Shown here: positions 3,397 through 28,809 of the stretch, one piece after another | How the letters are laid out: the number at the start of each line of letters is the position of its first letter | How positions within the stretch are numbered: the stretch's first letter is position 1 | Program-made: the position numbers and the translations under genes | Assembly (NCBI GenBank): GCA_002104895.1 | Contig: MCFG01000189.1 | Location: forward strand, 97,501 to 128,386 | From: Anaeromyces robustus | Lineage: Eukaryota; Neocallimastigomycota; Neocallimastigomycetes; Neocallimastigales; Neocallimastigaceae | Direction: 5' to 3' | Length of the DNA: 30,886 bases | Notes under the pieces: generated by a model | Seen by the model: only the letters and a program-made list of their open reading frames with translations | The model's database searches: none | What the model was told of the DNA's origin: nothing

Positions 3397-3560
3397 AAAT
3401 ATAACACCATTTCTCCTTAATTCAGTAAATTTTTTTTGTATTTCATGAAAATAATCAGAATGTAATCGAATATATTCTAAAGATTGTAATTCAGAAAAAG
3501 TATTTAAAGATGTTACAATAATATAAAGATTAGCTTTTTTAGCTGCTCTTGTGTATTTAC
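3397..3560 (-). pseudogene. Relic of a subtilase-CBM18 gene (fifth copy)
   Basis: Read on the minus strand this stretch encodes about 55 residues clearly related to the protease domain of the neighbouring genes, from just after the catalytic His to the strand before the oxyanion Asn. It holds KYTRAAKKANLYII, FSELQSLEYIRLH and EIQKKFTELRRNGVIF, matching KYTGAAKKANLHII, FSELQSLEYI and the ELRRSGVIIF region of the gene at 4552-6544. About 15 residues between the IRLH and EIQ segments are missing, in frame. Similarity stops abruptly at both ends, and there is no start, signal peptide, Asp, His or Ser motif. It is therefore a truncated remnant, not a gene. It lies about 1 kb downstream of the first protease gene in the same orientation, so the array once extended further left. 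Confidence 0.8.
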
Positions 3561-4551
3561 AGATAAAAATTTTTTTTCTTTTTTAATTTCTTATAATGTT
3601 ATGTGAAATTGAATAAAAAATGTATTACAAAAAAAAAATTTTTACTCAATCAATAATTATGGAAAAATAAATAAGTAATATTTAATATTTATATACTCTT
3701 ATTATACTATTTATAAAATTATATTTATTTATATAATTATTATAATTTATTATCATTACTTATTAGTAAATCATAATAATATCATATTTCATTTAAATTA
3801 AACTCTTTTGATCGATCATAATTATAAACCATAATTAAAAATATAATTTAAGAATAAAACACATTAATTGTTAAATATATATGCTTGTTAGTTTTAATTT
3901 TATTTTTATTTATTTATTTAAATGATTTAATTATTTTTTTTTATTATTAATTATTATTCTTTTTTCTTTTATTTTAATTTTTATTTTATTTTGATTTTTT
4001 TTCCTTTATTTTGATTTTTTCTTTTATTTTGATTTTTTATTTTTAAATTTATATTTATTTTTTGTTTATATTTATATTTATTAATAGTTTTATGGTTTAT
4101 TCTAGTAATATATTACTTATGAATATTCATTTATATAATATTATAATTAATGCCTTATTCATATTAGTTATAATTCTAATAATGATAAGATTATTATATT
4201 AATTAGATTTTTATATATATAATTATATATATATAATATATTATTAAATTAATATTAAAATATTTCATTTTATATTTTAAAAAATAATTACAATCAATAT
4301 TGTTTTAAAATAGAATAATAATTCCATTATTTATGTTATTGATTGATAATATAAAAAAATAAATAGTAGTATAATTAATAATACTTTCATTTATTATAAT
4401 AAAATATTATTTTTTTTTCTTTTTCTTTTTCTTTTTCTTTCTTTTCTTCAATTAAAATAAATAAATAAATATTAAAACAAAAGGTTATAATAAATTTTTA
4501 ATATATTTATTTATTTATATATATACATATATATTAGTTTTTAATTTAATT
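3561..4551. other. Downstream flank of protease gene 1 (duplicated)
   Basis: No gene seen. From about 3740 the sequence matches the downstream flank of gene 4 (from about 17760), including a GATCGATC-containing block near 3810-3822 and 17815-17824. From about 3920 it also matches the downstream flank of gene 2 (from about 8840). The last 440 bases before the stop codon are almost identical in the three units, including AGTAATATATTACT, ATATATATAATTATATATAT and a variable CTTTTT run (4411-4450). The T-rich plus strand means A-rich 3' ends on the gene strand with several AATAAA-like strings; no single poly(A) signal can be chosen. Confidence 0.65.
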
Positions 4552-6544
4552 TTAATTTGAAGAATAACAAGCCCCAAATTCACTTTGACAACCTTTTCCA
4601 CAATGTTGAGAACTAGTACCACAATAACCATCTTTACTACAACATCCAACACCATCAATGTATCTACTTTTTTTGATAATACAACTACCATATCCTGGTC
4701 CACATCTATTATTTACAAGTCTAGTAGAAGTACTAGTTGATTTATTGGATAAACAAAATTCACTATATTCACTTTGACATCCTAAGCTAACATAACAATA
4801 TTGTGACGCACTACTTCCATCAAATTCAATACATTTATTATCTTTGCTACAACAACCTTTAGAACATTTAGAATATCCTGAATTTTCTCCACATCCATGA
4901 TAAGCATTATTTGGTGAATATACGACACGTTTACCATTATTAATAAATCTATTTGCTGTTTCACCTGGTAATCCATAAAGTATATCTTTAAGTGACATAT
5001 CAATTAAAGTTTTTTTCATTAAATTATAATTATATCTGATTTCAGTATGTTCTGACATAATAGTTGCAGCAACTCCAGCAACTAATGGTGTTGCATAAGA
5101 TGTACCATAATCTCTAAAATAATCAGTACCATCTTTTTCAAATAAATAAAATCCACCAACGGATGGATAAAATACTTCACCTGGAGCAAAAATATCAACA
5201 CATTTTCCATAATTAGAATAACTAGCAAATATATATATATCCATTACTAATATCTCTATCTATTGTATCCTCAGTTGCACCAACAGTAATAACATCATCA
5301 AATCCTCCATAAAGATGCATACTGGAACAACAGTTTTCCTTATTATTACCAGCAGCAACAAAAATGATAACACCACTTCTCCTTAATTCAATAATTTTTT
5401 CTTGTATTTCAGAATAATAACCATATCCTGTACGTGATATATTAATAATAGTTTTATTTGGTCTAGCATGTTTTCTAATATATTCTAAGGATTGTAATTC
5501 AGAAAAACTATGTAAAGATGTTGCAATAATATGAAGATTAGCTTTTTTAGCTGCTCCTGTGTATTTACCTCCTGCTGTCATGGATACAATAGTACCATGA
5601 GATGTATTTTTTATATTAGATACTTCACATCCTTTTACTCTTCTTTCATCATCATATGATAATTCAGTAAAATCATAATTTATATCCGAAATAGCATCAC
5701 ATGTTATAGTACGACTTCCATTATAGGTATCAAATTCATCATAATCAAAATATCCTGATTCTTCAATAAAATAAATATCTATATCTTGTCCAGCTGTTTT
5801 TGGGTAATAATAAGTATTATCATATACTTCAGTACTCTCAGAATCAAAATGAGATTGAGATAATAAGGATAAGTGAGAATAAAAATTTCTTGAAACATTT
5901 TTAAAACGATCTTGAACTATAACATCTGTCCAATTGGTTTCCTTTTGAATAAAATCGAGATTATAATAAGTATTAGCATCATTTTCTGTAGGAATAGATT
6001 TATTACATCTTTTAATATCTGGTAATTTTTTAACCTTTTTAATAACTTCATCGGATGCATAAATAACAACTGCATAACCACTATCAAGTGGACAAATGGG
6101 ACTAACTAATTTAGATTCAACAGGGATATATTCTTCAATTTTATCATCTAAAATTTCAGTTGAATTATCTGAACGTTTTTGAAGATTTTGAAGATTTTGA
6201 ATTGCAGTAATGTTTTGTGGATTAACTTGATTAACAAATAATAATTTAGTACTTCTATGATGACGTTTGTTCATAACAATTGAGTCAAGTTCTTCTAATC
6301 TTTCATCCATCTGACCATTTTCTAAAGTATATGTATCTTTATTTTCTTCAATGATATCATATATATCATTTAATTTATCATTAACAAAGACATCAACAGC
6401 ATCTTTAACATTTTGATCATCATCATAATCTTTAAGATTTATTTTAGTCTTAATAGTAATAATATAGTGATCATTATCAGCAAGGGCATTAATGAAATAG
6501 TTGAATAATACAACTATCATAAAAGCAAAAGAAAGAGATTTCAT
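4552..6544 (-). pseudogene. Secreted subtilase-CBM18-CBM18 gene 1, frameshifted
   Basis: This is a near-full-length copy of the family but its reading frame is broken. The 5' part (6544 down to 5222, 440 codons) encodes a signal peptide, the propeptide region and the protease domain with His (SHGT motif) and oxyanion Asn (AAGN). It then ends in an out-of-frame tail GYIYIC and a stop. The 3' part (down to 4552) continues in another frame with the nucleophile motif GTSYATP and both CBM18 modules. The break is an (AT)6 tract at 5229-5240, where gene 2 has eight bases (AAGTGTAT) and this copy twelve, a +4 change. As it stands, His and Ser are on separate frames, so no active protease is made. The first-triad position reads IEESG, with Glu where S8 enzymes have Asp. 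It could be a real pseudogene, one allele, or an assembly or sequencing error at the repeat. Confidence 0.85.
5229..5240. repeat. (AT)6 tract at the frameshift
   Basis: A dinucleotide run inside the coding region of protease gene 1. The same position reads AAGTGTAT in gene 2 (10257-10264) and AAGTATAT in gene 4. G-to-A changes could have created a pure AT run that then expanded by slippage, adding 4 nt and shifting the frame. Confidence 0.85.
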
Positions 6545-6812
6545 TTTTTAATTAATTTTTTTAATTTAATTATTATTATTTTATTTAATTATATTTGTAC
6601 TTTAATTTTTATTTTTATTTTTATTTACTTTTTATTTTTTATTTTATTATTATTTTTATTTTTATTTAATTTTTATTTTTATTTTTATTTAATTTTTATT
6701 TTTTTAATTTATTTTATTTTATTTTATTTTTTATATTATTTTATTTTATTTTTTTATATATTTAATAATTATACTCTACTATTTTATTTTTATATTTTAT
6801 AAATTTGTTTAT

Positions 6813-9579: not shown

Positions 9580-11574
9580 TTAATTTGAAGAATAACAAGC
9601 CCCAAATTCACTTTGACAACCTTTTCCACAATGTTGAGAACTAGTACCACAATAACCATCTTTACTACAACATCCAACACCATCAATGTATCTACTTTTT
9701 TTGATAATACAACTACCATATCCTGGTCCACATCTATTATTTACAAGTCTAATAGAAGTACTAGTTGATTTATTAGATAAACAAAATTCACTATACTCAC
9801 TTTGACATCCTAAGCTAACATAACAATATTGTGATGCACTACTTCCATCAAATTCAATACATTTATTATCTTTGCTACAACAACCTTTAGAACATTTAGA
9901 ATATCCTGAATTTTCTCCACATCCATGATAAGCATTATTTGGTGATAATACTACACGTTTACCATTATTAACAAATCTATTTACTGTTTTATCTGGTAAT
10001 CCATAAAGTATATCTTTAAGTGACATATCAATTAAAGTTTTTTTCATTAAATTATAATTATATCTGATTTCTCTATGTTCTGACATAATAGTTGCAGCAA
10101 TTCCAGCAACTAATGGTGTTGCAAAAGATGTACCATCATTTTTATAATAATTAGTACCATCTTTTTCAAATAAATAAAATCCACCAACGGATGGATAAAA
10201 TACTTCACCTGGAGCAAAAATATCAATACATTTTCCATAATTAGAATAACTAGCAAAAGTGTATCCATTACTAATATCTCTATCTATTGTATCCTCAGTT
10301 GCACCAACAGTAATAGCATCATCAAATCCTCCATAACGAAAATAATTGGAATCACAGTTTTCATGTTCATTACCACCAGAAACAAATATGATAACACCAT
10401 TTCTACTTAATTCAGTAAATATTTCTTGTATTTCAGGAACATAACCACGTCCTCCACGTGAAATATTAACAATAGTTTTATTTGGTCTAGCATGTAATCT
10501 AATATATTCTAAAGATTTTAATTCTGCAGAAGTATGTAAAGATGTTGCAATAATATGAAGATTAGCTTTTTTAGCTGCTCCTGTGTATTTACCTCCTGCT
10601 GTCATGGATACAATAGTACCATGAATTGAACTATCTCTATCAGATACTCCACATCCTTTTACTCTTCTTTCATCATCATATGATAATTCAGTAAAACCAT
10701 AATTTATATCTGAAATAGCATCACATGTTACAGTACGACTTCCATTATAGGTATCAAATTCATCATAATGAAAATAACCTGTTTCTTCAATAAAATAAAT
10801 ATCTATATCTTGTCCAGCTGTTTTTGGGTAATAATAAGTATTATCATATACTTCAGTACTCTCAGGATCAAAATGAGATTGAGATAATAAGGATAAATGA
10901 GAATAAAAATTTCTTGAAACATTTTTAAAACGATCTTGAACTCTAACATTTGTCCAATTGGTTTCCTTTTGAATAAAATCGAGATTATAATAAGTATTAG
11001 CATAATTTTCTGAAGGAATAGATTTATTACATCTTTTAATATCTGGTAATTTTTTAACCTTTTTAATAACTTCATCGGATGCATAAATAACAACTGCATA
11101 ACCACTACCAAGTGGACAAATAGGACTAACTAATTTAGATTCAACAGGGATATATTCAACTTTATCATCTAAAATTTCAGTTGAATTATCTGAACGTTTT
11201 TGAAGATTTTGGAGATTCTGAAAATTTTGAATTGCAGTAATGTTTTGTGGATTTACTTCATTAATAAATAATAATTTAGTACTTCTATGATGACGTTTGT
11301 TCATAACAATTGAATCAAGTTCTTCTAATCTTTCATCCATTTGGCCATTTTCTAAAGTATATGTATCTTTATTTTCTTCAATGATATCGTATATATCATT
11401 TAATTTATCATTAACAAAGACATCAACAGCATCTTTAACATTTTGATCATCATCATAATCTTTAAGATTTATTTTAGTCTTAAGAGTAATAATATAGTGA
11501 TCATTATCAGCAAGGGCATTAATGAAATAGTTGAATAATACAACTATCATAAAAGCAAAAGAAAGAGATTTCAT
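9580..11574 (-). CDS. Secreted subtilisin-like protein with two CBM18 modules (gene 2)
   Basis: An intact 664-residue product. Residues 1-22 form a signal peptide ending ALA. Residues 23 to about 200 are a propeptide region whose end (AVVIYASDEVIKKVKKLP) resembles an I9-type inhibitor domain. The S8-like domain spans about 255-500, with His318 (IHGT), oxyanion Asn402 (SGGN) and Ser483 (GTSFATP). The first triad position reads IEETG: ungapped alignment with the gene at 14357-16342 (VIDTA) places Glu263 at the catalytic Asp. Two cysteine-rich CBM18 modules follow (about 551-598 and 615-660), joined by a Ser/Thr-rich linker. Many N-glycosylation sequons support secretion. The protein should bind chitin; protease activity is uncertain because of the Asp-to-Glu change. 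The start fits the signal peptide and an A-rich context. Confidence 0.93.
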   Translation of the reverse strand: MKSLSFAFMIVVLFNYFINALADNDHYIITLKTKINLKDYDDDQNVKDAVDVFVNDKLNDIYDIIEENKDTYTLENGQMDERLEELDSIVMNKRHHRSTKLLFINEVNPQNITAIQNFQNLQNLQKRSDNSTEILDDKVEYIPVESKLVSPICPLGSGYAVVIYASDEVIKKVKKLPDIKRCNKSIPSENYANTYYNLDFIQKETNWTNVRVQDRFKNVSRNFYSHLSLLSQSHFDPESTEVYDNTYYYPKTAGQDIDIYFIEETGYFHYDEFDTYNGSRTVTCDAISDINYGFTELSYDDERRVKGCGVSDRDSSIHGTIVSMTAGGKYTGAAKKANLHIIATSLHTSAELKSLEYIRLHARPNKTIVNISRGGRGYVPEIQEIFTELSRNGVIIFVSGGNEHENCDSNYFRYGGFDDAITVGATEDTIDRDISNGYTFASYSNYGKCIDIFAPGEVFYPSVGGFYLFEKDGTNYYKNDGTSFATPLVAGIAATIMSEHREIRYNYNLMKKTLIDMSLKDILYGLPDKTVNRFVNNGKRVVLSPNNAYHGCGENSGYSKCSKGCCSKDNKCIEFDGSSASQYCYVSLGCQSEYSEFCLSNKSTSTSIRLVNNRCGPGYGSCIIKKSRYIDGVGCCSKDGYCGTSSQHCGKGCQSEFGACYSSN

Positions 11575-11873
11575 TTTTTAATTAATTTTTTTAATTTAAT
11601 TATTATTATTTTATTTAATTATATTTGTACTTTAATTTTTATTTTTATTTTTGTTTACTTTTTATTTTTTATTTTTTTATTTTTTTATTTTTTTATTTTT
11701 TTTATTTTATAAAAAAAAATTAATTTTATTTAATTTTTTTTTAATATCTTTATATATTTAATAATTATACTCTACTATTTTATTTTTATATTTATAAATT
11801 TGTTTATTTTCTTATTTATAAATAAGAAATTTTTATTCAAATTTATTTTAATTTATTTATTTATTTATTCAAT

Positions 11874-11917
11874 GTGTGTGGTATTAAAAAGAAAGTTATT
11901 TTTTCTTCTTTTTATAC
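11874..11917 (-). promoter_or_regulatory. Promoter-like block of protease gene 2
   Basis: On the gene strand: GTATAAAAAGAAG, purine-rich stretch, ACCACACAC. It is practically identical to the block upstream of gene 1 and lies about 300-340 bases before the ATG. Role inferred from conservation and the TATA-like string. Confidence 0.45.
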
Positions 11918-13277
11918 TTTTTTTTTTGTTAATTATATTATGGTAAATAATAATAATAATAATAATAGCAATAATAATAATAATAATTATAATAAAAGTA
12001 AAAACTGTTTTAATAAATGAAAGATAATATTGTAGTAACTCTAATTATTATAAAAAATATAGATACGCATCTTCTCTTTTATTACTTTTATTTATTATTT
12101 CCTTTATTTAATAAATATTTCCATCATTTATCATTACAATAATAATATATAATTTTATATTTAAAAAAATAATATTATTATATATAATTATTAAAACACA
12201 AACTTTTTTATTTCATACAATTTAATTATTATTTAATGCATTAATATAATAAAAAGAAATATAAAAAAAAACTTAAAAAAGATTATTCTTTATTATTTAT
12301 TTTATTATTAATATCATTTTCTAAAGTGGATTATTTGTAATAACATTTATGAGAATGATATATTCTTTAATTAAATGACTTTCATCAAAATTATTAATAA
12401 AAAATCTCTAATTCTTATCAATTTTATTTTTATTTTTTACAATGTATACTTGGATTTATATTTATTAATATATATTTATTATAAAAGATTTACAAACATA
12501 TAAATTCTATAGCTATTAATAATATTTAAATTATTATTTTTATACTCTTTTAGTTTATTTCATATTAGTAAATTCTATTTGTTTAATTTTTTTATTTTTT
12601 TGTTTAATTGATTTTTATTGTTTTTGTTTTTTGTTTTTTGTTTTTTTTTTAGAGTTTTTTTTTTTTTCTAGAATTATATTATTAATTATTTCTATCAACA
12701 TAAAAATTGATGGTACACTTTTTTAAGTTAATCTTTTTCAATAAATTCAATTAATATTATGGTAAAACAATTCAAAAAAAAAATTTTTTTTTTCACTAAA
12801 TTAATTATCTTTTAGTTACAATCAAATTTACCTTTAATTTAATTAATGTTTATTTAGTACCAAATAAATAAATTAATATAAAAAAATATTGTAAACTTTA
12901 TTCATATATAAAATTTATTAAAAAATTTCTGTATAAAAAAAAAATCTCACATCCACTATTAAATATCTTTTCAAAAAAAAACTTATTTTTTATTTAAATT
13001 TAAACTATGATATTTTTAACGAATATTAGTATATGAATATTTGAAATATATATATTTCATTCTTTATAATGAATACTTTTTTTTTTTTAATTGCAATCAA
13101 ATAGTGATTACATTCATTATCATTATTATAATTGATTATTAACAAAAATATATAGTTAACATCCAATTATGAAAAATTAAAATACATTTAAACTTTAATA
13201 TAGATTGAAGTGGATTATTTTTTTTTTTATATTAGTGTTTTTGTTTTTGTAAAGAAAAAAAGTATATTCTTTTAAAT

Positions 13278-13371
13278 TTATATTAAATTGAAAAAAAAAA
13301 TATTATATAAAAAGATTTTTTTATATTATATTAAATATTAATATATAATAAAGTTTTTCAATATTCCTTAA
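13278..13371. repeat. Partner of the 94 bp inverted segment (unit 2 orientation)
   Basis: Same orientation as 22831-22922 and opposite to 8067-8160. Because two of three units agree, unit 1 probably carries the derived flip. Confidence 0.75.
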
Positions 13372-13401
13372 CAAAGAAATATTTCATTATTACTTTAACT
13401 T

Positions 13402-13488
13402 AAATACAAAATTAAATTTCATATTATTATAAATTATTTATTATTACTATATAATATGAAACAAAAAATAACATGAATTTTTAATAAC
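13402..13488. repeat. 87 bp segment inverted relative to unit 4
   Basis: The reverse complement of 22961-23047 matches this segment at about 84 of 87 positions without gaps, while flanks on both sides (CATTATTACTTTAA and TTTAATATAATTGTGATA) are colinear. Inverted arms lie inside it (TTTCATATTA at 13417-13426 and TAATATGAAA at 13452-13461). Confidence 0.8.
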
Positions 13489-13711
13489 AAAAATATTAAA
13501 AAATTTAATATAATTGTGATATCTTTATCATATTATAGTAAATCAATAAAAGAAACAATAATAATTAATAATGATTTAATATATTATTAGATAATTATAT
13601 AGTAGATTGAAAGATAAATAAATAAATAAAAATAATGATATTAATAAATCAATGTAAACATAAACAAATATTTAAATGTAATAAATTACATAGTATTATA
13701 TCCCAACAAAT

Positions 13712-13712
13712 T

Positions 13713-13787
<75 letters not shown>

Positions 13788-13790
13788 TTT
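13712..13790. repeat. (TTTA)n tract, about 20 units, at unit end
   Basis: Marks the right end of the gene 2 unit, preceded by TATCCCAACAAATTTTA as at the other junctions. To the right the sequence is unrelated to the young units and leads to gene 3. A translated frame through the run (repeats of IYLF) is meaningless. Confidence 0.95.
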
Positions 13791-13974
13791 TTTTATTTAT
13801 TTATTTTATTTATTACCTTTATTTTATTTATTTTATAAATATTTATGTTAATTAATGGTTTTGTTTATTAATATATATGAAATTATTTCTTTATAAATTT
13901 TTTATAACGCTATTTATGCTATATTTTATTTATTATAAATTCCTTATATTAATATGAATTTATAATTTTATTTT

Positions 13975-14025
13975 ATATTATGTTTTTATATATACTTTTA
14001 TAGATAATATATAAAAACATAATAT
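13975..14025. repeat. Inverted repeat, 19 bp arms
   Basis: ATATTATGTTTTTATATAT at 13975-13993 pairs perfectly with 14007-14025, leaving a 13 nt loop. It lies about 330 bases beyond the stop of gene 3 and directly abuts the palindrome at 14026-14067. Confidence 0.7.
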
Positions 14026-14067
14026 TAATTCATATAATAATAATTATAATTATTATTATATGAATTA
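14026..14067. repeat. Perfect 42 bp palindrome
   Basis: Two 21 bp halves (beginning TTAATTCATATAATAATAAT) are exact reverse complements with no spacer. With the 19 bp-arm repeat next to it, this makes a cruciform-prone cluster in the gene 2 to gene 3 spacer. Confidence 0.75.
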
Positions 14068-14356
14068 TTTGTTTAAATAATAACTATATATAAATAATAT
14101 TTATATTTAATATAGAAAATGTAATAAGATTATAATTAATGATTATTAAAATAGAAAAAAAAAAACTTTTTTCTAAATTATTAAAATAATAGATTTTTTT
14201 AGTTCTTTCAATGATGAAAAATATTATAAATATATAATATATGTGTGTTTTAATTATTTTTACATAATATTATGTGAAAATAAAAATAAATTAAAAAAAA
14301 AAAGAAAAAAAAAAAAAAAAATTTTTTTTCTTTAATTCTAAATAAAAAAAAGTTGA

Positions 14357-16342
14357 TTAATTTGATAAATAACATACACCAAATTCACTTTGACATCCTT
14401 TACCACAATATTCAGAACTCCTACCACAATAACCATCTGAACTACAACATTCAACATCATCATAATATCTAGAATTTTTAGTTATACAACTACCATATTC
14501 TGGTCCACATCTCTTATTTGTTTTCCTAGTACTAACTTTAGTATTTAAACTTGATAAACAAAATTCACTAAATTCACTTTGACATCCTTTACTAATACTG
14601 CAGTATTGTGACATATTACGTCCATCAAATTCAATACATTTATTATTTTTTGTACAACAACCTTTAGAACATTTAGAATTTCCTGATGTTTCACCACATC
14701 CACGATATGTATTTGTTGGTGAATATACTATACGTTTACCATTATTAATAAATCTATTTGGTGTTTCATCATTTATTCCTTTTAATATATCTTTAATTGA
14801 CATATCAATTAATATTTGTTTCATTGAATAATGATCATAATGAATTTCAGAATGTTCTGACATAATAGTAGCTGCAACTCCAGCAACTAATGGTGATGCA
14901 AAAGATGTTCCAATAGAAGTTTGGAATCTAACACCTTCTCTCGATACTCTACTATATTGATCAAGTGATGGATAAAGTATTTCACCTGGAGCAAAAATAT
15001 CAACACAAGGTCCAAAATTAGAATAAGAAGATCTAGAATATCCATTATTAATATCATTATAAAATGTGCTTTCTGTTGCTCCAACTGTAATAACACCATC
15101 ATATCCTCCAAAATAATATTCTTTTGAACAACAATCAACATTATTATTTCCAGCTGAAACAAAAATAATAAAACCTGCTTCTTTTAATTCAATAAATTTA
15201 GCTGCCATTTCAGGACTATCTCCATTTCCTCCAATAGAAAGATTAATAACGGTTTTATACGGTACTGCATTTAATTTAATATAATCGAAGCCCAATATCT
15301 CATCAAAAGTATCCAAAGTTGCTGCAATAAAATGAAGATTAGATTTCTTAGCTGCTCCTGTATATTTACCACCAGCTGCCATAGAAACGAGAGTTCCATG
15401 AGATTCAATACCTTTATCTTTTACCCCACATTCTTTTCTATTTATTACATCATCATCAGGTATTTCATAAAAGTTATCATTTTCAATAATGACATCACAT
15501 GTTATAGTACGACTCTCATTATAAGTATCAAATTCATCATTATTAAAATTTACTGCTGTATCTATAACATAGATATCAATATCTTGTCCAGCCGAACTTG
15601 GATAATAATAATTATTATCATATTCTTCTGTACTTTCCATATCAAAACGTGATTGTGACATTAATGATAAATGAGAATAAAAGTATCTCTCTTTAACATA
15701 ACTAAAACGATCTTGAATACTAATATCTGTCCAATTAGTTTCTTTTTTAATATATTCAAGATTATAATATGTATTATTATTATCATTATCATTATTATAT
15801 AATTGTTTTAATGGGTTATTTTTAGTACAACGTCTAATATTAGGCAATTTTTTTATCTTTTTAATAACTTTTTCAGATGCATAGATAACAACTGCATAAT
15901 CATTACCAACTGGACATAAAGGTCTAGCTAATTTTGATTTAATAGGAATATAATTAATTTCTTCTAAATTATCAGTACGCTTATATATTTTTTGGAAAGT
16001 AGTAATATTTTTTGGTCTATTTTGACTAACAAAAATAAATTTAGTAGTTTCATTATTTCGCTTTTTTAAGGCAATTAAATCAAGTTCTTCTAATTTTTCA
16101 TCCATTTGCCCATTTTCCAATAGATAAGAATCTTTATTTTCTTCAATTATATTATATATATCATTTAATCTATCATTAACCAAAACATCTATAGCTTCTT
16201 GAACACTTTGACTTTCATCATCATAATTTTTATGATTTAAATTGCTCATAATAGAAACAATATAATGATCATTTTTAGCATAAACATTAATAAAATAGTT
16301 GAATAATACAACTATCATAAAAGTTAAAGAAATAGATCTCAT
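14357..16342 (-). CDS. Secreted subtilisin-like protease with two CBM18 modules (gene 3, diverged)
   Basis: An intact 661-residue product and the oldest paralogue of the cluster. Residues 1-22 are a signal peptide (ending VYA); the propeptide region runs to about 200. The S8-like domain carries a full triad: Asp261 (IYVIDTAV), His315 (SHGT) and Ser480 (GTSFASP), with oxyanion Asn399 (SAGN). CBM18 modules lie at about 549-595 and 612-657. The Asp motif has Ala in place of the usual Gly after the Thr. It has an Asn/Asp-rich insert (about 181-191) that the others lack, and a shorter segment before the KR pair near 121. The flanks are not those of the young units, but the promoter-like block is recognisable. 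It is the member most likely to be an active serine endopeptidase acting outside the cell or at the chitinous wall; the substrate is unknown. Confidence 0.93.
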   Translation of the reverse strand: MRSISLTFMIVVLFNYFINVYAKNDHYIVSIMSNLNHKNYDDESQSVQEAIDVLVNDRLNDIYNIIEENKDSYLLENGQMDEKLEELDLIALKKRNNETTKFIFVSQNRPKNITTFQKIYKRTDNLEEINYIPIKSKLARPLCPVGNDYAVVIYASEKVIKKIKKLPNIRRCTKNNPLKQLYNNDNDNNNTYYNLEYIKKETNWTDISIQDRFSYVKERYFYSHLSLMSQSRFDMESTEEYDNNYYYPSSAGQDIDIYVIDTAVNFNNDEFDTYNESRTITCDVIIENDNFYEIPDDDVINRKECGVKDKGIESHGTLVSMAAGGKYTGAAKKSNLHFIAATLDTFDEILGFDYIKLNAVPYKTVINLSIGGNGDSPEMAAKFIELKEAGFIIFVSAGNNNVDCCSKEYYFGGYDGVITVGATESTFYNDINNGYSRSSYSNFGPCVDIFAPGEILYPSLDQYSRVSREGVRFQTSIGTSFASPLVAGVAATIMSEHSEIHYDHYSMKQILIDMSIKDILKGINDETPNRFINNGKRIVYSPTNTYRGCGETSGNSKCSKGCCTKNNKCIEFDGRNMSQYCSISKGCQSEFSEFCLSSLNTKVSTRKTNKRCGPEYGSCITKNSRYYDDVECCSSDGYCGRSSEYCGKGCQSEFGVCYLSN

Positions 16343-16426
16343 TTTTTTTCTTTTTATTTTGATTTCTATTTATAATTTAATTTTTTTTTTTTATATTCCT
16401 ATATTTTTATATTTTTAATATTTTAT

Positions 16427-16520
16427 TTTTTATTTTAATTTTTTATTTTAATTTTTTATTTTAATTTTTTATTTTAATTTTTTATTTTAATTTTTTATTT
16501 TTATTTTTTATTTTAATTTT
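16427..16520. repeat. 13 bp minisatellite, about 7 copies
   Basis: The unit TATTTTAATTTTT is repeated with few changes, about 90-190 bases before the start codon of gene 3. It occupies the same relative place as the ATTTT tract of gene 4 and the T-rich runs upstream of genes 1 and 2. Confidence 0.75.
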
Positions 16521-16705
16521 TTATTTTTTATTCTTCTTTATCTTTATTTTTTATTTTTTATTTTTTATTTTTTATTTTTTATTTCTATTATCTGTTCTTT
16601 TAAAATTATATATGAATTTTTATTATTTATATTTTATTATTTTTTATATTTTTATTGTTTATGCTTTTTAATCAATTCATATATAATATCTTTTTTTTTT
16701 AATTT

Positions 16706-16744
16706 GTTGTGTTAAATAAAGAAACCTTTCCTCTTCTTATATAC
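16706..16744 (-). promoter_or_regulatory. Promoter-like block of protease gene 3
   Basis: On the gene strand it reads TATATAAGAAGAGG, a purine-rich stretch and then AACACAAC, parallel to the GTATAAAAAGAAG to ACCACACAC block of the young genes. It starts about 365 bases before the ATG. Similarity survives although most surrounding spacer does not align. Confidence 0.4.
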
Positions 16745-17501
16745 CAATTTCTATTACAAAAAAAAAGAAAAAAAAAAAAAAAAGAACATCAAAAAATAAT
16801 AAAAAATTAGCCAATTAAGATTTTATTAAAATTTTCTTAAATTTTAAGATTTATAAATAACTTTATTTATAATAAATTCTTTCTGTATTAAATATTTATA
16901 ACTAAACAATTTTTCTTTTAATATTTTTTTTTTTTTATTTTACAAAAAAATAAATTAATAAAACATTTTAATAAAAAAATAGAAATAATAAATAATAATA
17001 ATCCTTTAAAACTCAAAAATTAAATATATAAATATTAAATTATTTTTGGAATAAAAATAGAAAATTCTTTAAAATAAATTATGTTTTATATGTAACACAG
17101 TAAAAAAAAATTAATTTTTTTTTTTTTCTGTATTATGTTTTTTTTTTTTTTTTTTTATAATTTAACACAACTGGATAAAAAAAAAATGTTAATATAGAAA
17201 GCTATATTAATATTTTTTTCTGTAAAATATTTTTTTTATTTAATATAGTTGAAATTTAGAAAAAAAATTTTTTTATAAATAAAGACCTAATTTAGATAAA
17301 AATTTATAATAGAATATTAAATACTATTGTTTCATATTTTTTTATATGAAATTTTAATTATTAATCATCAATTAAACTTTTCAAATAAAGATTTATATAA
17401 TGAATATCAAATTTTCTTCTTTTATATAAAAATTATATTACAAAATATTTTTATTTATATATATAATATATATTTATATATATACATTTATTTATTTATT
17501 T

Positions 17502-17751
<250 letters not shown>

Positions 17752-18643
17752 ATAATTATCATTACCAATAAGTCATGGCAATTATATCATATTTCAATTA
17801 AATTAAACTCTTTTGATCGATCATAATTTTAATCCATAATTAAAAATATAATTTTAGAATAAAACACATTAATTGTTAAATATATATGCTTGTTAGTTTT
17901 AATTTTATTTTTATTTATTTATTTAAATGGTTTTATTATTTTTTTTATTATTAATTATTGTTCTTTTTTTCTTTATTTTAATTTTAATTTTTATTTTTTT
18001 TTTTTTTATTTTTATTTTGATTTTTTCTTTTATTTTATTTTTATTTATTTAATTTTGATTTTGATTTTTAAATTTAATTTTTTGTTGTTTTTTTTCTTTT
18101 ATTTTAATTTTTTATCTTTAAATTTATATTTACTTTTTATTTTTATTTATATTAATATTTTTATGGTTATTCTAGTAATATATTACTTATGAATATTCAT
18201 TTATATAATATTATTGTTAAAGTCTTTTTCATATTAGTTATAATTCTAATAATGATAAGATTATTATATTAATTAGATTTTTATATATATAATTATATAT
18301 ATATAATATATTATTAAATTAATATTAAAATATTTCATTTTATATTTTAAAAAATAATTACAATCAATATTGTTTTAAAATAGAATAATAATTCCATTAT
18401 TTATGTTATTGATTGATAATATAAAAAAATAAATAGTAGTATAATTAATAATACTTTCATTTATTATAATAAAATATTATTTTTTTTTCTTTTTCTTTTT
18501 CTTTTTCTTTTTCTTTTTCTTTCTTTTCTTCAATTAAAATAAATAAATAAATATTAAAACAAAAGGTTATAATAAATTTTTAATATATTTATTTATTTAT
18601 ATATATTATTTATAATATATATTTATTAGTTTATAATTTAATT
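17752..18643. other. Downstream flank of protease gene 4 (duplicated)
   Basis: No gene seen; open plus-strand frames here are Phe/Ile/Leu-rich translations of T-rich DNA. It is colinear with 3740-4551, including the GATCGATC block, and its right half also with 8850-9579. The CTTTTT run near 18489-18532 is longer than in the other two copies. Confidence 0.65.
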
Positions 18644-20638
18644 TTAATTTGAAGAATAACAAGCCCCAAATTCACTTTGACAACCTTTTCCACAATGTTG
18701 AGAACTAGTACCACAATAACCATCTTTACTACAACATCCAACACTATCAATGTATCTACTACTTTTGATAATACAACTACCATATCCTGGTCCACATCTA
18801 TTATTTACAAGTCTAATAGAAGTACTAGTTGATTTATTGGATAAACAAAATTCACTATACTCACTTTGACATCCCATACTAACTAAACAAGATTGTGATA
18901 CACTACTTCCATCAAATTCAATACATTTATTATCTTTGCTACAACAACCTTTAGAACATTTATAATTACCTGAATTTTCTCCACATCCATGATAAGCATT
19001 ATTTGGTGATAATACTACACGTTTACCATTATTAACAAATCTATTTACTGTTTTATCTGGTAATCCATAAAGTATATCTTTAAGTGACATATCAATTAAA
19101 GTTTTTTTCATTAAATTATAATTATATCTGATTTCTCTATGTTCTGACATAATAGTTGCAGCAATTCCAGCAACTAATGGTGTTGCATAAGATGTACCAT
19201 AATCTCTAAAATAATCAGTACCATCTTTTTCAAATAAATAAAATCCACCAACGGATGGATAAAATACTTCACCTGGAGCAAAAATATCAATACATTTTCC
19301 ATAATTAGAATAACTAGAAAAAGTATATCCATTACTAATATCTCTATCTATTGTATCTTCAGTTGCACCAACAGTAATAACATCATCAAATCCTCCATAA
19401 CGAAAACGATTGGAATCACAGTTTTCATGTTCATTACCACCAGAAACAAATATGATAACACCATTTCTACTTAATTCAGTAAATATTTCTTGTATTTCAG
19501 GAACATAACCACGTCCTCCACGTGAAATATTAACAATAGTTTTATTTGGTCTAGCATGTAATCTAATATATTCTAAAGATTTTAATTCAGTATGAGTGTA
19601 TAAAGATGTAGCAATAATATGAAGATTAGCTTTTTTAGCTGCTCCTGTGTATTTACCTCCTGCTGTCATGGATACAATAGTACCATGAATTGAACTATCT
19701 CTATCAGATACTCCACATCCTTTTACTCTTCTTTCATCATCATATGATAATTCAGTAAAACCATCATTTGTATCTGAAATAGCATCACATGTTACAGTAC
19801 GACTTCCATTATAGGTATCAAATTCATCATAATGAAAATAACCTGTTTCTTCAATAAAATAAATATCTATATCTTGTCCAGCTGTTTTTGGATAATAATA
19901 AGTATTATCATATACTTCAGTATTCTCAGGATCAAAATGAGATTGAGATACTAAGGATAAATGAGAATAAAAATTTCTTGAAACATTTTTAAAACGATCT
20001 TGAACTCTAACATTTGTCCAATTGGTTTCCTTTTGAATATAATCTAGATTATAATAAGTATTGGCATGATTTTCTGAAGGAATAGATTTATTACATCTTT
20101 TAATATCTGGTAATTTTTTAACCTTTTTAATAACTTCATCGGATGCATAAATAACAACTGCATAACCACTATCAAGTGGACAAATAGGACTAACTAATTT
20201 AGATTCAACAGGGATATATTCAACTTTATCATCTAAAATTTCAGTTGAATTATCTGAACGTTTTTGAAGATTTTGGAGATTCTGAAAATTTTGAATTGCA
20301 GTAATGTTTTGTGGATTTACTTCATTAATAAATAATAATTTAGTACTTCTATGATGACGTTTGTTCATAACAATTGAATCAAGTTCTTCTAATTTTTCAT
20401 CCATTTGGCCATTTTCTAAAGTATATGTATCTTTATTTTCTTCAATGATATCGTACATATCATTTAATTTATCATTAACAAAGACATCAACAGCATCTTT
20501 AACATTTTGATCATCATCGTAATCATTATGATTTATTTTAGTCTTAAGAGTAATAATATAGTGATCATTATCAGCAAGGGCATTAATGAAATAGTTGAAT
20601 AATACAACTACCATAAAAGCAAAAGAAAGAGATTTCAT
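18644..20638 (-). CDS. Secreted subtilisin-like protein with two CBM18 modules (gene 4)
   Basis: An intact 664-residue product, colinear with gene 2 without gaps. Signal peptide 1-22, propeptide region to about 200, S8-like domain with His318 (IHGT), Asn402 (SGGN) and Ser483 (GTSYATP), CBM18 modules at about 551-598 and 615-660. As in gene 2, the first triad position reads IEETG, with Glu263 in place of Asp. It shares with gene 2 the segment around GVIIFVSGGNEHENC, but with gene 1 the segment DYFRDYGTSYATP next to the nucleophile. The first CBM18 has its own changes (SGNYKC, SQSCLVSMGC). The mosaic suggests gene conversion between copies. A 575 bp ATTTT tract begins about 112 bases before the ATG, within the likely leader. 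Chitin binding is expected; protease activity is uncertain. Confidence 0.93.
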   Translation of the reverse strand: MKSLSFAFMVVVLFNYFINALADNDHYIITLKTKINHNDYDDDQNVKDAVDVFVNDKLNDMYDIIEENKDTYTLENGQMDEKLEELDSIVMNKRHHRSTKLLFINEVNPQNITAIQNFQNLQNLQKRSDNSTEILDDKVEYIPVESKLVSPICPLDSGYAVVIYASDEVIKKVKKLPDIKRCNKSIPSENHANTYYNLDYIQKETNWTNVRVQDRFKNVSRNFYSHLSLVSQSHFDPENTEVYDNTYYYPKTAGQDIDIYFIEETGYFHYDEFDTYNGSRTVTCDAISDTNDGFTELSYDDERRVKGCGVSDRDSSIHGTIVSMTAGGKYTGAAKKANLHIIATSLYTHTELKSLEYIRLHARPNKTIVNISRGGRGYVPEIQEIFTELSRNGVIIFVSGGNEHENCDSNRFRYGGFDDVITVGATEDTIDRDISNGYTFSSYSNYGKCIDIFAPGEVFYPSVGGFYLFEKDGTDYFRDYGTSYATPLVAGIAATIMSEHREIRYNYNLMKKTLIDMSLKDILYGLPDKTVNRFVNNGKRVVLSPNNAYHGCGENSGNYKCSKGCCSKDNKCIEFDGSSVSQSCLVSMGCQSEYSEFCLSNKSTSTSIRLVNNRCGPGYGSCIIKSSRYIDSVGCCSKDGYCGTSSQHCGKGCQSEFGACYSSN

Positions 20639-20750
20639 TTTTTTATTAATTTTTTTAATTTAATTATTATTATTTTATTTAACTTTGTTATTTAATTTTT
20701 TATTTTTATTTAATTTTTATTTTTTATTTTTTATTTTTTTTTTTTTTTTT

Positions 20751-21325
20751 ATTTTATTTTATTTTATTTTATTTTATTTTATTTTATTTTATTTTATTTT
20801 ATTTTATTTTATTTTATTTTATTTTATTTTATTTTATTTTATTTTATTTTATTTTATTTTATTTTATTTTATTTTATTTTATTTTATTTTATTTTATTTT
20901 ATTTTATTTTATTTTATTTTATTTTATTTTATTTTATTTTATTTTATTTTATTTTATTTTATTTTATTTTATTTTATTTTATTTTATTTTATTTTATTTT
21001 ATTTTATTTTATTTTATTTTATTTTATTTTATTTTATTTTATTTTATTTTATTTTATTTTATTTTATTTTATTTTATTTTATTTTATTTTATTTTATTTT
21101 ATTTTATTTTATTTTATTTTATTTTATTTTATTTTATTTTATTTTATTTTATTTTATTTTATTTTATTTTATTTTATTTTATTTTATTTTATTTTATTTT
21201 ATTTTATTTTATTTTATTTTATTTTATTTTATTTTATTTTATTTTATTTTATTTTATTTTATTTTATTTTATTTTATTTTATTTTATTTTATTTTATTTT
21301 ATTTTATTTTATTTTATTTTATTTT
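20751..21325. repeat. (ATTTT)115 perfect pentanucleotide tract
   Basis: 115 uninterrupted copies as given. It lies between the ATG of gene 4 and its promoter-like block at 21469-21512. The equivalent places upstream of genes 1 and 2 hold only short mixed T-rich runs, so the expansion is specific to this copy. On the transcript it would read as AAAAT repeats if the block is indeed the promoter. The open plus-strand frame through it (repeats of FYFIL) is not a gene. Confidence 0.97.
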
Positions 21326-21468
21326 TAATATCTTTATATATTTAATAATTATACTCTATTATTTTATTTTTATATTTTATAAATTTGTTTAATACTTTCT
21401 TATTTATAAATAAAAAATTTTTATTCAAATTTATTTTATTAAATTAATTATTTATTTATTTATTTAAT

Positions 21469-25023: not shown

Positions 25024-25659
25024 CAATTTAATTAACCTATTAATTATTTCAAACCAAACTACCTAAGAAAAAATATCGATTTTATTTGTATATATTAATA
25101 CTAATACTAATACTAATATTTAAAGTATTTATATCTAATTTGATTGTCAAAGTAAAAAATTGATTATTACCGTGTTTTTTTAATCAATTTATATATACTA
25201 TTTATCATTCTTCAAAAATAGAAAAAAATTTTTTATACACTAATTAATAAGAAAAATTTTTAATATAAATTTAATAACATAAAAAAATGAAATAGTTATT
25301 AAAGTACTTTTGTTTTTTTAGTTTTATTATTTATTTTTAAAAGTTGATAATGTAAAAAAAATAATAAACTAAGAAATCGGGATCTTACTTTTATTATTAT
25401 TTATTTTCACTCTTTATTTTATTTTTCCTTTTTTGTTTTTATTTTAAATTTAAATTTAATGTTATTTTAACATAAATTATAAAATTTAATCTAAAAAAAC
25501 AAAAAAAAAAAAAGCAAAAATAAATAAAAATTAACAAATAAATAAATAATAAAATACTATTCAAGTATAATATATTATTATTATTATTATATATTTAAAT
25601 AATTAAAGAAAAAAATAGATAAATAAATAAGATATAATTAAATTTAAAATATAAACAAA
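24441..25659. other. Spacer upstream of the ankyrin gene
   Basis: No coding sequence seen. It contains A runs (30 A at 24991-25020), a short TAATAC repeat (about 25092-25117) and A-rich sequence leading to the ATG at 25660. The promoter of the ankyrin gene must lie here, but no element can be named. Confidence 0.55.
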
Positions 25660-28600
25660 ATGGTTAATAATGATAATAATAATAATAATAGAAGTCATAG
25701 AGAAAAAATTTTTAACTTTATATCAAATAATGATATAAATGGATTGAAAAACTATATTGACAAAAACAATATAGTTTTAAGAAAATTAGAGCATAATAGG
25801 ACAATACCAATAAAACGTAATTTTTTAATTTATTCCATTAATAATAATGCCTCAGTAGAAATGGTAAAATATATTATTAATGAATGTCAATATGAAACTT
25901 TAAATTTTGGTTCTTATGCTCTAGATTCACCATTAGCATATGCCATCAAAAATGAAAATATTGAATTAGCTGATTATTTATTAGAAAATGGGGCTGATAT
26001 TAATTATAATCGTACAAAAAAAAATAAAGATTTACTAGACCAAATATATGAAGAAAAAAAAGGTAAAAATATTAAAAAATGGATAAAATATATCATTAGT
26101 CATGGTTTTTACATTTCAATGGAAAATTTGAAAAAATTAATAATTGATAATAATACCAGCTCTCTAAAAATAATAATTAATCATCTAACAGATAATCATA
26201 AATTTATCTTAAACCTACTTTCATATTACAAAAGTAAGATACCTTTATCAAATAAACAATTAAAAGAAAAAATTTCGGAAGAAAAAAAAGTAATATTTAA
26301 TGATTCTTTATTTGAAATTGCTATTGAAAATGCAAATTATGAGGCCATAAATCTATTTATGAACTATGATAATAGAAAAAAGGAAATAATACTATATCAT
26401 ATATTAAATGTATTTGAAGAAGTTAATGATATAAATAGCAATGAACTGAATTCTTCTCTCCATAAAAAAATAGTTTTTATTAATGATATTAAAAATGGAA
26501 GAATAAAAATTCCAGTTGATAATTATACCCTAGATAATATACTCCACTACCATGAAATATGTCAACAAATAAAAAAATTAATTGAACATAAAAATTTAAT
26601 ACACTTTCAATCCTATTTTCAAGAAGAAAAACGAATATCAAAATTTTTTATAAAATATTTACATAATATGGAATTTGATATTTTGATATATGCCATTGAA
26701 CAACAAGAAACACCCATAGAAATGATAGAATATATTATTCAACAATATGACAATTTAAACTATTTTATTGATTTAAATGAAGATTTCATTCGAACTCCAC
26801 TTTATATAGCTGTTGAAACGGAACAATTTAATATAGCAGATATATTATTAAAATATGGTGCAGATATTAATTATAATTATGAAGAACTTTTATTATCCAA
26901 AAATGATGAGGCTTTAAATTATAATGGTCATAATGAAAATATTTTTGACTATTTATACCAAAAACAGCGATTGAATCATCGAATTTTAAAATATATGTTC
27001 AATCGTGATATTTATTTAACCTCTGATATTCTCAATAATTTAATTGATAAAAATGAAACCAAACTTTTAAAAATAATTTTTCATCAATATATTTTTAATG
27101 AACAATTCATTTTAAATTTACTTTCTCATTATCAAAATAAAATACCACTGTCCGAAAAGGCCTTACAAATAAAAATCAAAAGAGAAATAAATAAAATAGA
27201 TTTTGATGATTTAATGTATATTAATGCTTTTGCTATTAATAATTATGATATTTTAAACCTTTTAATTAGAAATGATAATAGAAAGCAAAATATTATTATA
27301 TATGATGTATTTAATTTATTAAATAAATATTCTGAAAAGGGGAAGATTTTTGTTGATAAACTTAGGAGTAATCCTCATAAAACAGATATAGAAAATATTA
27401 TAATTGAAAATTCCATAAATATTGAAGATAAAAGGAAAACGATTATGGAAAAAATTAAAAATAATGATAGAAAAGGACTACAAAATTATATTGAAATTCA
27501 TCGAATTATATTACAATGTTTATATGAAGCTAGAAATAATAATGATATATTAATTTATGCTATTGAAAATAATAATACTAGTCTTGATATCATTAAGTTT
27601 ATTATAAGTCAATATACCACTTTAAATTATTTTACTTTTCGTATCCATAATAATAAATATATTCAGTGTAATACACCACTTCTTTCTGCCGTTTATAGAA
27701 ATAAATTTCATATTGCAGATTTATTATTAAAAAATGGTGCAGATATTAATTTTAATATTCATGGCGTTAATATTCTTTACTATCTATGTGAAAATACACC
27801 TACCTGTAAAAGAGCTTTAAGATATGTTATTCATCATGGTATTGATTTAACTTATAATACACTTTTTAAATTAATTATATCTATGAATAATGAAATGTTG
27901 AATCGAATTTTAAAATATTATACCTTTGGACCACCATTTATTATAAATATGATTTATTTTTCAAAAAAAAAATTAGCCCTATCAAATCAACAACTTAAAT
28001 ATTTAATTGCAAAAGAAAAGGATAAATTAAAAATTAATAATCCAATTTATAGAGTAGCCCTTGAAAATTATAATTTTAATGGGTTAGAAATACTTCTTAA
28101 CTATAGTAATCATCGAAGGAAAACGATTGAATATTTAAATATATGTAATCGATCACAATCAATTTTTAGAGGGAAAATAGAAAATATAGTACGTGAAGGT
28201 AAACTGGAAATGTTAAAAATTTTATTTGCTAATAATATTAATATTAGTGGCGATGATTGGTTTCATAATTTACCATTAATTTATGCCATTAAAGCCGAAA
28301 ATTATGAAATTATTAAATATTTAATAGGACGTAGTAATAATAATGCCCAAGAAATTGATAAAAAAGATTTAATTAATTTAGTAAAACATGGGAAATTAAA
28401 AATATTAAAATTATTAATTTCAAATTATTTAAATTTAAATGAAAATAAAGGCTATGAACTTATGCTTGAAGCTATAAAATGTAATAATGAAAAAATAATA
28501 AAATATTTTTTAGATACAAATATATGTCATCAAAATATATATAATGTATTTGAACCTATCATACAAAATGGAAAATTGAATATTTTGAAATTATTATTAG

Positions 28601-28809
28601 AAAATAATAATAATATTAATAATAATTATAAAATTGATATAAATATGAAAGATAATAAAAATCATACACCTTTAGATTATGCTCTAAAATATAAAAATTT
28701 AGAAATTATAAAATATATTATTGAGTGTGGAGCTGATATTAATAATATAAATGATCAAATAGTAAAAGATACTGAAAAAGATCTTTTAGATTTAATCCAC
28801 TTTTTATAA
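25660..28809 (+). CDS. Large ankyrin-repeat protein with threefold super-repeat
   Basis: An intact 1049-residue product. It has no signal peptide or membrane segment and is likely intracellular. Canonical ankyrin turns LENGADINYN (108-117), KYGADINYN (398-406), KNGADINFN (691-699) and ECGADINNI (1022-1030) identify the family. The first 830 residues form three diverged copies of one module of about 235-255 residues (about 14-250, 300-552, 594-830). Each has an opening helix pair, LIYxI, a GADIN repeat, a helical block and a segment of the FILNLLSYY and IPLSNKQLK type. Residues 840-1049 are more regular ankyrin repeats (GKLEMLKILF, GKLKILKLLI, GKLNILKLLL). The start has an A-rich context and a polyAsn N-terminus. 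Such proteins are usually protein-binding scaffolds; the partner is unknown. Alternative: a diverged family that only borrows ankyrin folds. Confidence 0.92.
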   Translation: MVNNDNNNNNRSHREKIFNFISNNDINGLKNYIDKNNIVLRKLEHNRTIPIKRNFLIYSINNNASVEMVKYIINECQYETLNFGSYALDSPLAYAIKNENIELADYLLENGADINYNRTKKNKDLLDQIYEEKKGKNIKKWIKYIISHGFYISMENLKKLIIDNNTSSLKIIINHLTDNHKFILNLLSYYKSKIPLSNKQLKEKISEEKKVIFNDSLFEIAIENANYEAINLFMNYDNRKKEIILYHILNVFEEVNDINSNELNSSLHKKIVFINDIKNGRIKIPVDNYTLDNILHYHEICQQIKKLIEHKNLIHFQSYFQEEKRISKFFIKYLHNMEFDILIYAIEQQETPIEMIEYIIQQYDNLNYFIDLNEDFIRTPLYIAVETEQFNIADILLKYGADINYNYEELLLSKNDEALNYNGHNENIFDYLYQKQRLNHRILKYMFNRDIYLTSDILNNLIDKNETKLLKIIFHQYIFNEQFILNLLSHYQNKIPLSEKALQIKIKREINKIDFDDLMYINAFAINNYDILNLLIRNDNRKQNIIIYDVFNLLNKYSEKGKIFVDKLRSNPHKTDIENIIIENSINIEDKRKTIMEKIKNNDRKGLQNYIEIHRIILQCLYEARNNNDILIYAIENNNTSLDIIKFIISQYTTLNYFTFRIHNNKYIQCNTPLLSAVYRNKFHIADLLLKNGADINFNIHGVNILYYLCENTPTCKRALRYVIHHGIDLTYNTLFKLIISMNNEMLNRILKYYTFGPPFIINMIYFSKKKLALSNQQLKYLIAKEKDKLKINNPIYRVALENYNFNGLEILLNYSNHRRKTIEYLNICNRSQSIFRGKIENIVREGKLEMLKILFANNINISGDDWFHNLPLIYAIKAENYEIIKYLIGRSNNNAQEIDKKDLINLVKHGKLKILKLLISNYLNLNENKGYELMLEAIKCNNEKIIKYFLDTNICHQNIYNVFEPIIQNGKLNILKLLLENNNNINNNYKIDINMKDNKNHTPLDYALKYKNLEIIKYIIECGADINNINDQIVKDTEKDLLDLIHFL

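Follow-up and report, generated by a model that had tools for sequence, protein, structure and literature searches.

Can a protease of the subtilisin fold run on a Ser-His-Glu triad? The question is raised by a 30,886-nucleotide stretch of the genome of the neocallimastigomycete fungus Anaeromyces robustus (contig MCFG01000189.1, C100:97501-128386 in a genome of 70.2 Mb and 769 contigs), hereafter the window, which carries a minus-strand tandem array of four genes for peptidases of family S8. Gene 2 (9580..11577, first Met codon at 11574) and gene 4 (18644..20659, first Met codon at 20638) are intact open frames with Glu at the position of the catalytic Asp, gene 3 (14357..16369, first Met codon at 16342) is intact and keeps the Asp, and gene 1 (4552..6547) also has the Glu and would have suffered a recent frameshift. 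We consider it about an even bet (a probability of roughly 0.5) that genes 2 and 4 encode proteinase K-like S8 proteases in which Glu has replaced Asp as the triad acid, and which are predicted from their sequence to cleave with Ser-His-Glu. The Glu aligns with the Asp, the rest of the catalytic residues are kept along with the conserved S8 positions, codon models detect constraint, and a second intact Glu copy has an origin of its own elsewhere in the genome; it is mainly because of the retained residues and this second origin that we favour this reading.

The three intact genes resemble the proteinase K-like subtilases of MEROPS S8A/PF00082 (aqualysin, proteinase K) in the order of their motifs, in their HGT, GN and GTS signatures and in Peptidase_S8 matches far above the curated cut-off of 21.8 bits (gene 2, 78.1 bits, 9.1e-22; gene 3, 88 bits, 9.3e-25; gene 4, 76.2 bits, 3.5e-21), and aqualysin-1 is the best solved relative by sequence of genes 2 and 3. 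The S8 genes of the window share a layout: the N-terminus is hydrophobic, and some 190 N-terminal residues precede the S8 domain, which is followed by a cysteine-rich end. They are unlike S8A in (i) the Glu for Asp in genes 1, 2 and 4, (ii) the ~190-residue N-terminal part, for which there was no Pfam prodomain match, and (iii) the cysteine-rich, chitin-binding-like C-terminus, where the chitin-binding module PF00187 matches below its cut-off of 27.8 (E ~5e-4, 20.6-20.9 bits) and does so alike in Glu and Asp genes. Identity is 95% between genes 2 and 4 and 61% between genes 2 and 3, while for the pieces of gene 1 the figures are 89% and 91%.

At the catalytic position, the motif is DIYFIEETGYFHYDEFD in genes 2 and 4, DIYFIEESGYFDYDEFD in gene 1 and DIYVIDTAVNFNNDEFD in gene 3, with longer reads of FIEETG, FIEESG and VIDTA, respectively. 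When set against a profile of 51 Asp-bearing rows, the first Glu falls on the Asp column without a gap (the rows listed being gene 1, gene 4 and an unlinked copy on contig C59, with gene 2 having the motif of gene 4). The catalytic Asp of PF00082 is hence Glu in genes 1, 2 and 4 (codons 5762-5764, 10786..10788 and 19850-19852, all on the minus strand; GAA in gene 2) and in the C59 copy, and Asp in gene 3 (15560-15562). This bears out the initial annotation, made from the letters of the window alone, which had Glu replacing Asp in genes 1, 2 and 4 and VIDTA kept in gene 3. The spacing from IDIY to DEFD, over which it had aligned the genes without gaps, is indeed equal, although it comes to 18 residues on recounting instead of the 16 given.

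The remainder of the active site is preserved. His (HG), the oxyanion Asn and Ser (GTS) are present in genes 2, 3 and 4 and in the C59 copy (in gene 2, computed from residue indices, His lies at 10621-10623, Asn at 10369-10371 and Ser at 10126-10128, minus strand). That all three are kept had also been claimed for gene 1, which is true only across two frames, since the frameshift separates the piece with His and Asn from that with Ser. This conservation extends to the 50 near-invariant S8 columns (at least 90% conserved in the 51 Asp rows), in a comparison that lists 30 rows, gene 4's not among them. Gene 2 departs at a single column, the Asp itself, for an Asp-row median of 2, and gene 1 likewise departs only at the Asp among the 29 columns covered by its longer piece. 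The C59 copy departs at five of the 50, two of which closely precede the Glu in its strand.

How unusual the change is can be gauged from the rest of the genome, in which a PF00082 search returned at least 131 matches (128 of 166 first-look candidates were scored), five of them with in-frame stops that may be introns or damage. Over 130 S8 places the Asp column holds Asp 126 times and Glu four times; 114 of these places are in one alignment (110 Asp, 4 Glu) and 16 come from 17 further short stretches (16 Asp, with L132 unreadable), the count being exclusive of L001 (whose open frame starts after the Asp), C193 (in-frame stops) and the unscored candidates. Over the aligned part, rows from C672 match rows from C1 exactly or are separated from them by zero branch length (L013/L014, L052/L104), so that C672 is probably a haplotig, the S8 counts are slightly inflated and a few of the 130 places are possibly two haplotypes of one. 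The only Glu beyond genes 1, 2 and 4 is in the C59 copy (L098/L138), which is unlinked to the window, intact over 651 amino acids, reads IETG and keeps HGV, AGN and GTS. An SR motif was considered as a mark of the Glu forms and rejected, since several Asp paralogs carry SR. Elsewhere in the family, a young paralog (L054, C40:140577-145085) keeps Asp, His and Asn and has Phe for the catalytic Ser (GTF), which, on sequence, makes it a stronger candidate for a pseudoprotease than the Glu copies are, and another copy (L125, C126:71564-71864) keeps the Asp, seemingly without the loop that follows it (LLDEDYNRYEG). Outside relatives were sought in collections that hold no fungal genomes: viral contigs gave 0 matches for gene 2 and 0 for the S8 alignment, and genome contigs gave five distant bacterial S8. 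As for the lineage as a whole, passages of one survey count S08 as one of the peptidase families that have expanded in Neocallimastigomycota, yet also give S08A copy number as among the lowest there (PMC8778642).

The four Glu copies do not descend from one ancestral replacement, judging from the trees. On a tree of the 114 aligned rows from which the Asp motif columns had been removed, the Glu state changes twice. On a tree of 40 rows chosen by hand from these, genes 1, 2 and 4 form a clade whose sister is gene 3 (100/99), while the C59 Glu copy sits within a five-row C59 clade, the rest of which is Asp (100/99). A single Glu clade is rejected on the 40-row tree, with a log-likelihood 61.7 lower and a p-AU of 6.7e-5 that is not strictly prior, the test having been set after the first tree was seen. 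The Asp-to-Glu swap, as reconstructed from these sequences, arose at least twice in this genome. That the copies that multiplied are those carrying the change, as the initial annotation had it, is true inside the window only: of 13 young groups among the 114 rows (80% identity over the shared region), seven have at least three members and six of these seven are Asp groups, the window Glu copies being one small young group. The idea that amplification follows Glu was rejected on this count.

Genes 2 and 4, whose divergence lies entirely after the Glu change, have a whole-gene omega of 0.25 (likelihood ratio test, LRT, against 1: 12.9), and the gene 1 pieces against genes 2 and 4 give 0.25-0.32; Asp pairs of like age give 0.15-0.25 (nine of 13 pairs, the other four being saturated, much older or without differences). 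Over the S8 part, omega for gene 2 versus gene 4 is 0.20 in the GY codon model (LRT 10.9) or 0.37 in the MG model (LRT 4.6), for 0.13-0.39 and 0.25-0.73, respectively, in five Asp control pairs (both models together give 0.13-0.43 in four of the five, one of which includes the Ser-to-Phe copy, and 0.39 and 0.73 in the fifth). The N-terminal part is constrained between genes 1 and 2 (0.08 or 0.13). The differences between genes 1 and 2 are concentrated in one segment, residues 301-420, with 31 amino-acid and 3 silent changes, whereas residues 1-190 have 6 and 8 (Fisher p 0.0008); the same contrast gives p 0.006 for gene 1 versus gene 4 and p 1.0 for gene 2 versus gene 4. Omega for this segment in gene 1 versus gene 2 is 1.15 or 2.13, not significantly above 1, the maximum in Asp pairs being 0.59 or 1.23, and in four of the five Asp pairs, too, the segment evolves faster than the N-terminal part (Fisher p <0.05 in two of five). 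These figures do not establish positive selection peculiar to the Glu copies. On balance, the Glu copies appear to evolve much like their Asp cousins, if somewhat more loosely, with a conserved core and a fast pocket segment.

If genes 2 and 4 are proteases, their products would be secreted and their prodomain cleaved, the mature proteins would probably cleave proteins by Ser-His-Glu, with catalysis weakened or retuned, and the C-terminal cysteine-rich modules may bind a carbohydrate surface. Other serine hydrolases use Glu as triad acid, and here a carboxylate is retained in both replacements. Several points nevertheless speak against proteolysis by genes 2 and 4. Glu is one methylene longer than Asp, and subtilisins lose much activity when the triad Asp is replaced; the Asp is kept at 126 of 130 places, and the Glu change is thus disfavoured in this family; and the window Glu forms have T or S in place of the Gly found two residues after the Asp position in 90 of 110 Asp rows. 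The evidence for constraint is open to challenge as well. Whole-gene omega for the Glu pairs is at or above the top of the Asp range, and in the dN/dS check proposed by the initial annotation the constraint on gene 2 versus gene 4 holds in codon models, but the S8 part of gene 1 versus gene 2 (0.72 or 1.35) is indistinguishable from neutrality. Nei-Gojobori counts, from which we derived S8 dN/dS ratios of ~0.66 (gene 2 versus 4) and 2.0 (gene 1 versus 2), are weaker still, so that constraint depends on the model, although codon models are to be trusted over these counts because of AT bias. Gene conversion among the copies may blur all omega figures, and a maintained pseudoprotease, too, would be expected to show constraint.

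That last point leads to a serious rival, possible if rather doubtful in our eyes, which is that no useful catalysis survives the change to Glu and that genes 2 and 4 are maintained for binding, be it of substrate proteins, inhibitors or, as in the example given by the initial annotation, chitin. Loss of catalysis does occur in the family, as the missing Ser of L054 attests, the Asp has been replaced twice, the cysteine-rich part is kept, and omega of the Glu pairs is at or just above that of the Asp pairs. However, both replacements are carboxylates, His, Asn and Ser are kept, gene 2 loses no further near-invariant column, and the chitin-binding part shows no sign of stronger constraint than the S8 part (omega for gene 2 versus gene 4 of 0.24 versus 0.20 in one model and 0.40 versus 0.37 in the other). 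The sub-cut-off chitin-binding matches do not set the Glu genes apart from the Asp genes, and we do not prefer a chitin-binding pseudoprotease to the simpler Ser-His-Glu reading. An improbable alternative is that the Glu marks the onset of decay, leaving little function, in a large family prone to turnover. This would suit the frameshift in gene 1 and the relic adjoining it, the 131 S8 matches in one genome (five with in-frame stops), the small and young group formed by the window Glu copies and the little S8 constraint in Nei-Gojobori counts, but it sits badly with genes 2 and 4, which are intact and constrained in codon models, with the diverged C59 copy, intact over 651 amino acids, and with the absence of other near-invariant losses in gene 2. 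It is very unlikely indeed that another residue is the true acid or that the motif is an assembly artefact. The genes are surrounded by AT-rich repeats, and the ACA common to genes 2, 3 and 4 makes a one-residue shift possible at the DNA level (a one-codon insertion and a later one-codon deletion), yet the shifted register also puts Glu at the Asp position, as had been claimed and as the codons bear out. Moreover, three copies agree, the spacing is unchanged, the profile alignment is ungapped and the C59 copy has a plain IETG. The aspartates of the upstream DIDIY segment, which the initial annotation had named as possible triad members that would undo its claim, also occur in Asp paralogs, so that no nearby Asp stands in for the lost one. 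A fuller form of the Ser-His-Glu reading, in which a natural and catalytically competent Ser-His-Glu triad would have arisen in a subtilisin fold from Asp ancestors at least twice in one fungal genome, with neighbouring strand and loop changes fitting the longer side chain, remains tentative, at rather less than an even chance.

Gene 1, which lies outside the coordinates of the initial annotation, consists of two open pieces (5222-6547 and 4552-5259, minus strand), its frame broken by a net 4-nucleotide insertion in a TA run, and, barring a sequencing error at the indel, probably became a pseudogene recently. A fifth copy is reduced to a relic (3457..3560, minus strand), a translated piece that is confined to the region between the His and Asn motifs and belongs to repeat family D15 (90% to gene 1). 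Genes 1 and 4 are 97% alike in their 3' flanks (4088-4387 and 18158-18457), and genes 1 and 2 are 99% alike at their ends, which suggests block duplication plus gene conversion. Among the 1-kb bins listed, G+C content spans ~8% to 29%, and long simple repeats between or beside genes (17467-17771 and 20664-21392), with units of 4 and 5 bases judging from their translations, produce spurious open frames in three frames. Further along, an open frame of 1053 amino acids on the plus strand (25648-28809) is rich in ankyrin repeats (Ank_2, 5e-42). Genome-wide, CBM_10, which we take to be the fungal dockerin-type module, has at least 150 matches (150 of 683 candidates scored), for 0 in 14 control genomes. 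Together with the G+C content, these matches would point to an anaerobic gut-dwelling fungus.

How do the Glu forms compare with known departures from the S8 triad? Passages of one fungal survey describe a Pezizomycotina S8 subgroup, cd04843, with DxExG for DTG (PMC5567314), which is likewise fungal and altered in the Asp region; that motif still starts with Asp, whereas in the window genes Glu is at the Asp itself. Sedolisins (S53), treated in part of another survey (PMC5371821), are subtilase relatives that use Glu, in a Ser-Glu-Asp triad without His. As His is kept in HGT, the window proteins are not S53. CspA and CspC of Clostridioides difficile are also subtilase relatives. Both are called pseudoproteases in two papers (PMC6636752, PMC12880746), but, unlike them, the window Glu proteins show no sign of lost His or Ser, nor of a signalling role. 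Glu forms could have been filtered out or overlooked, since, as far as the relevant passages go, one fungal survey dropped genes with ambiguous alignment near catalytic residues as pseudogenes (PMC5371821) and another set aside likely inactive homologs (PMC5567314). In the open-access literature, judged by titles and abstract starts, no paper was recognised as describing Glu-for-Asp S8, although one on PCSK9 contains the words 'replaced by Glu' (PMC5621713), so that the form may well have been described before.

The triad acid of S8 enzymes is regarded as invariant. With Glu having arisen twice independently in genes that are otherwise intact, it can be put to a direct test whether Ser-His-Glu suffices for a subtilisin and which nearby changes permit it.

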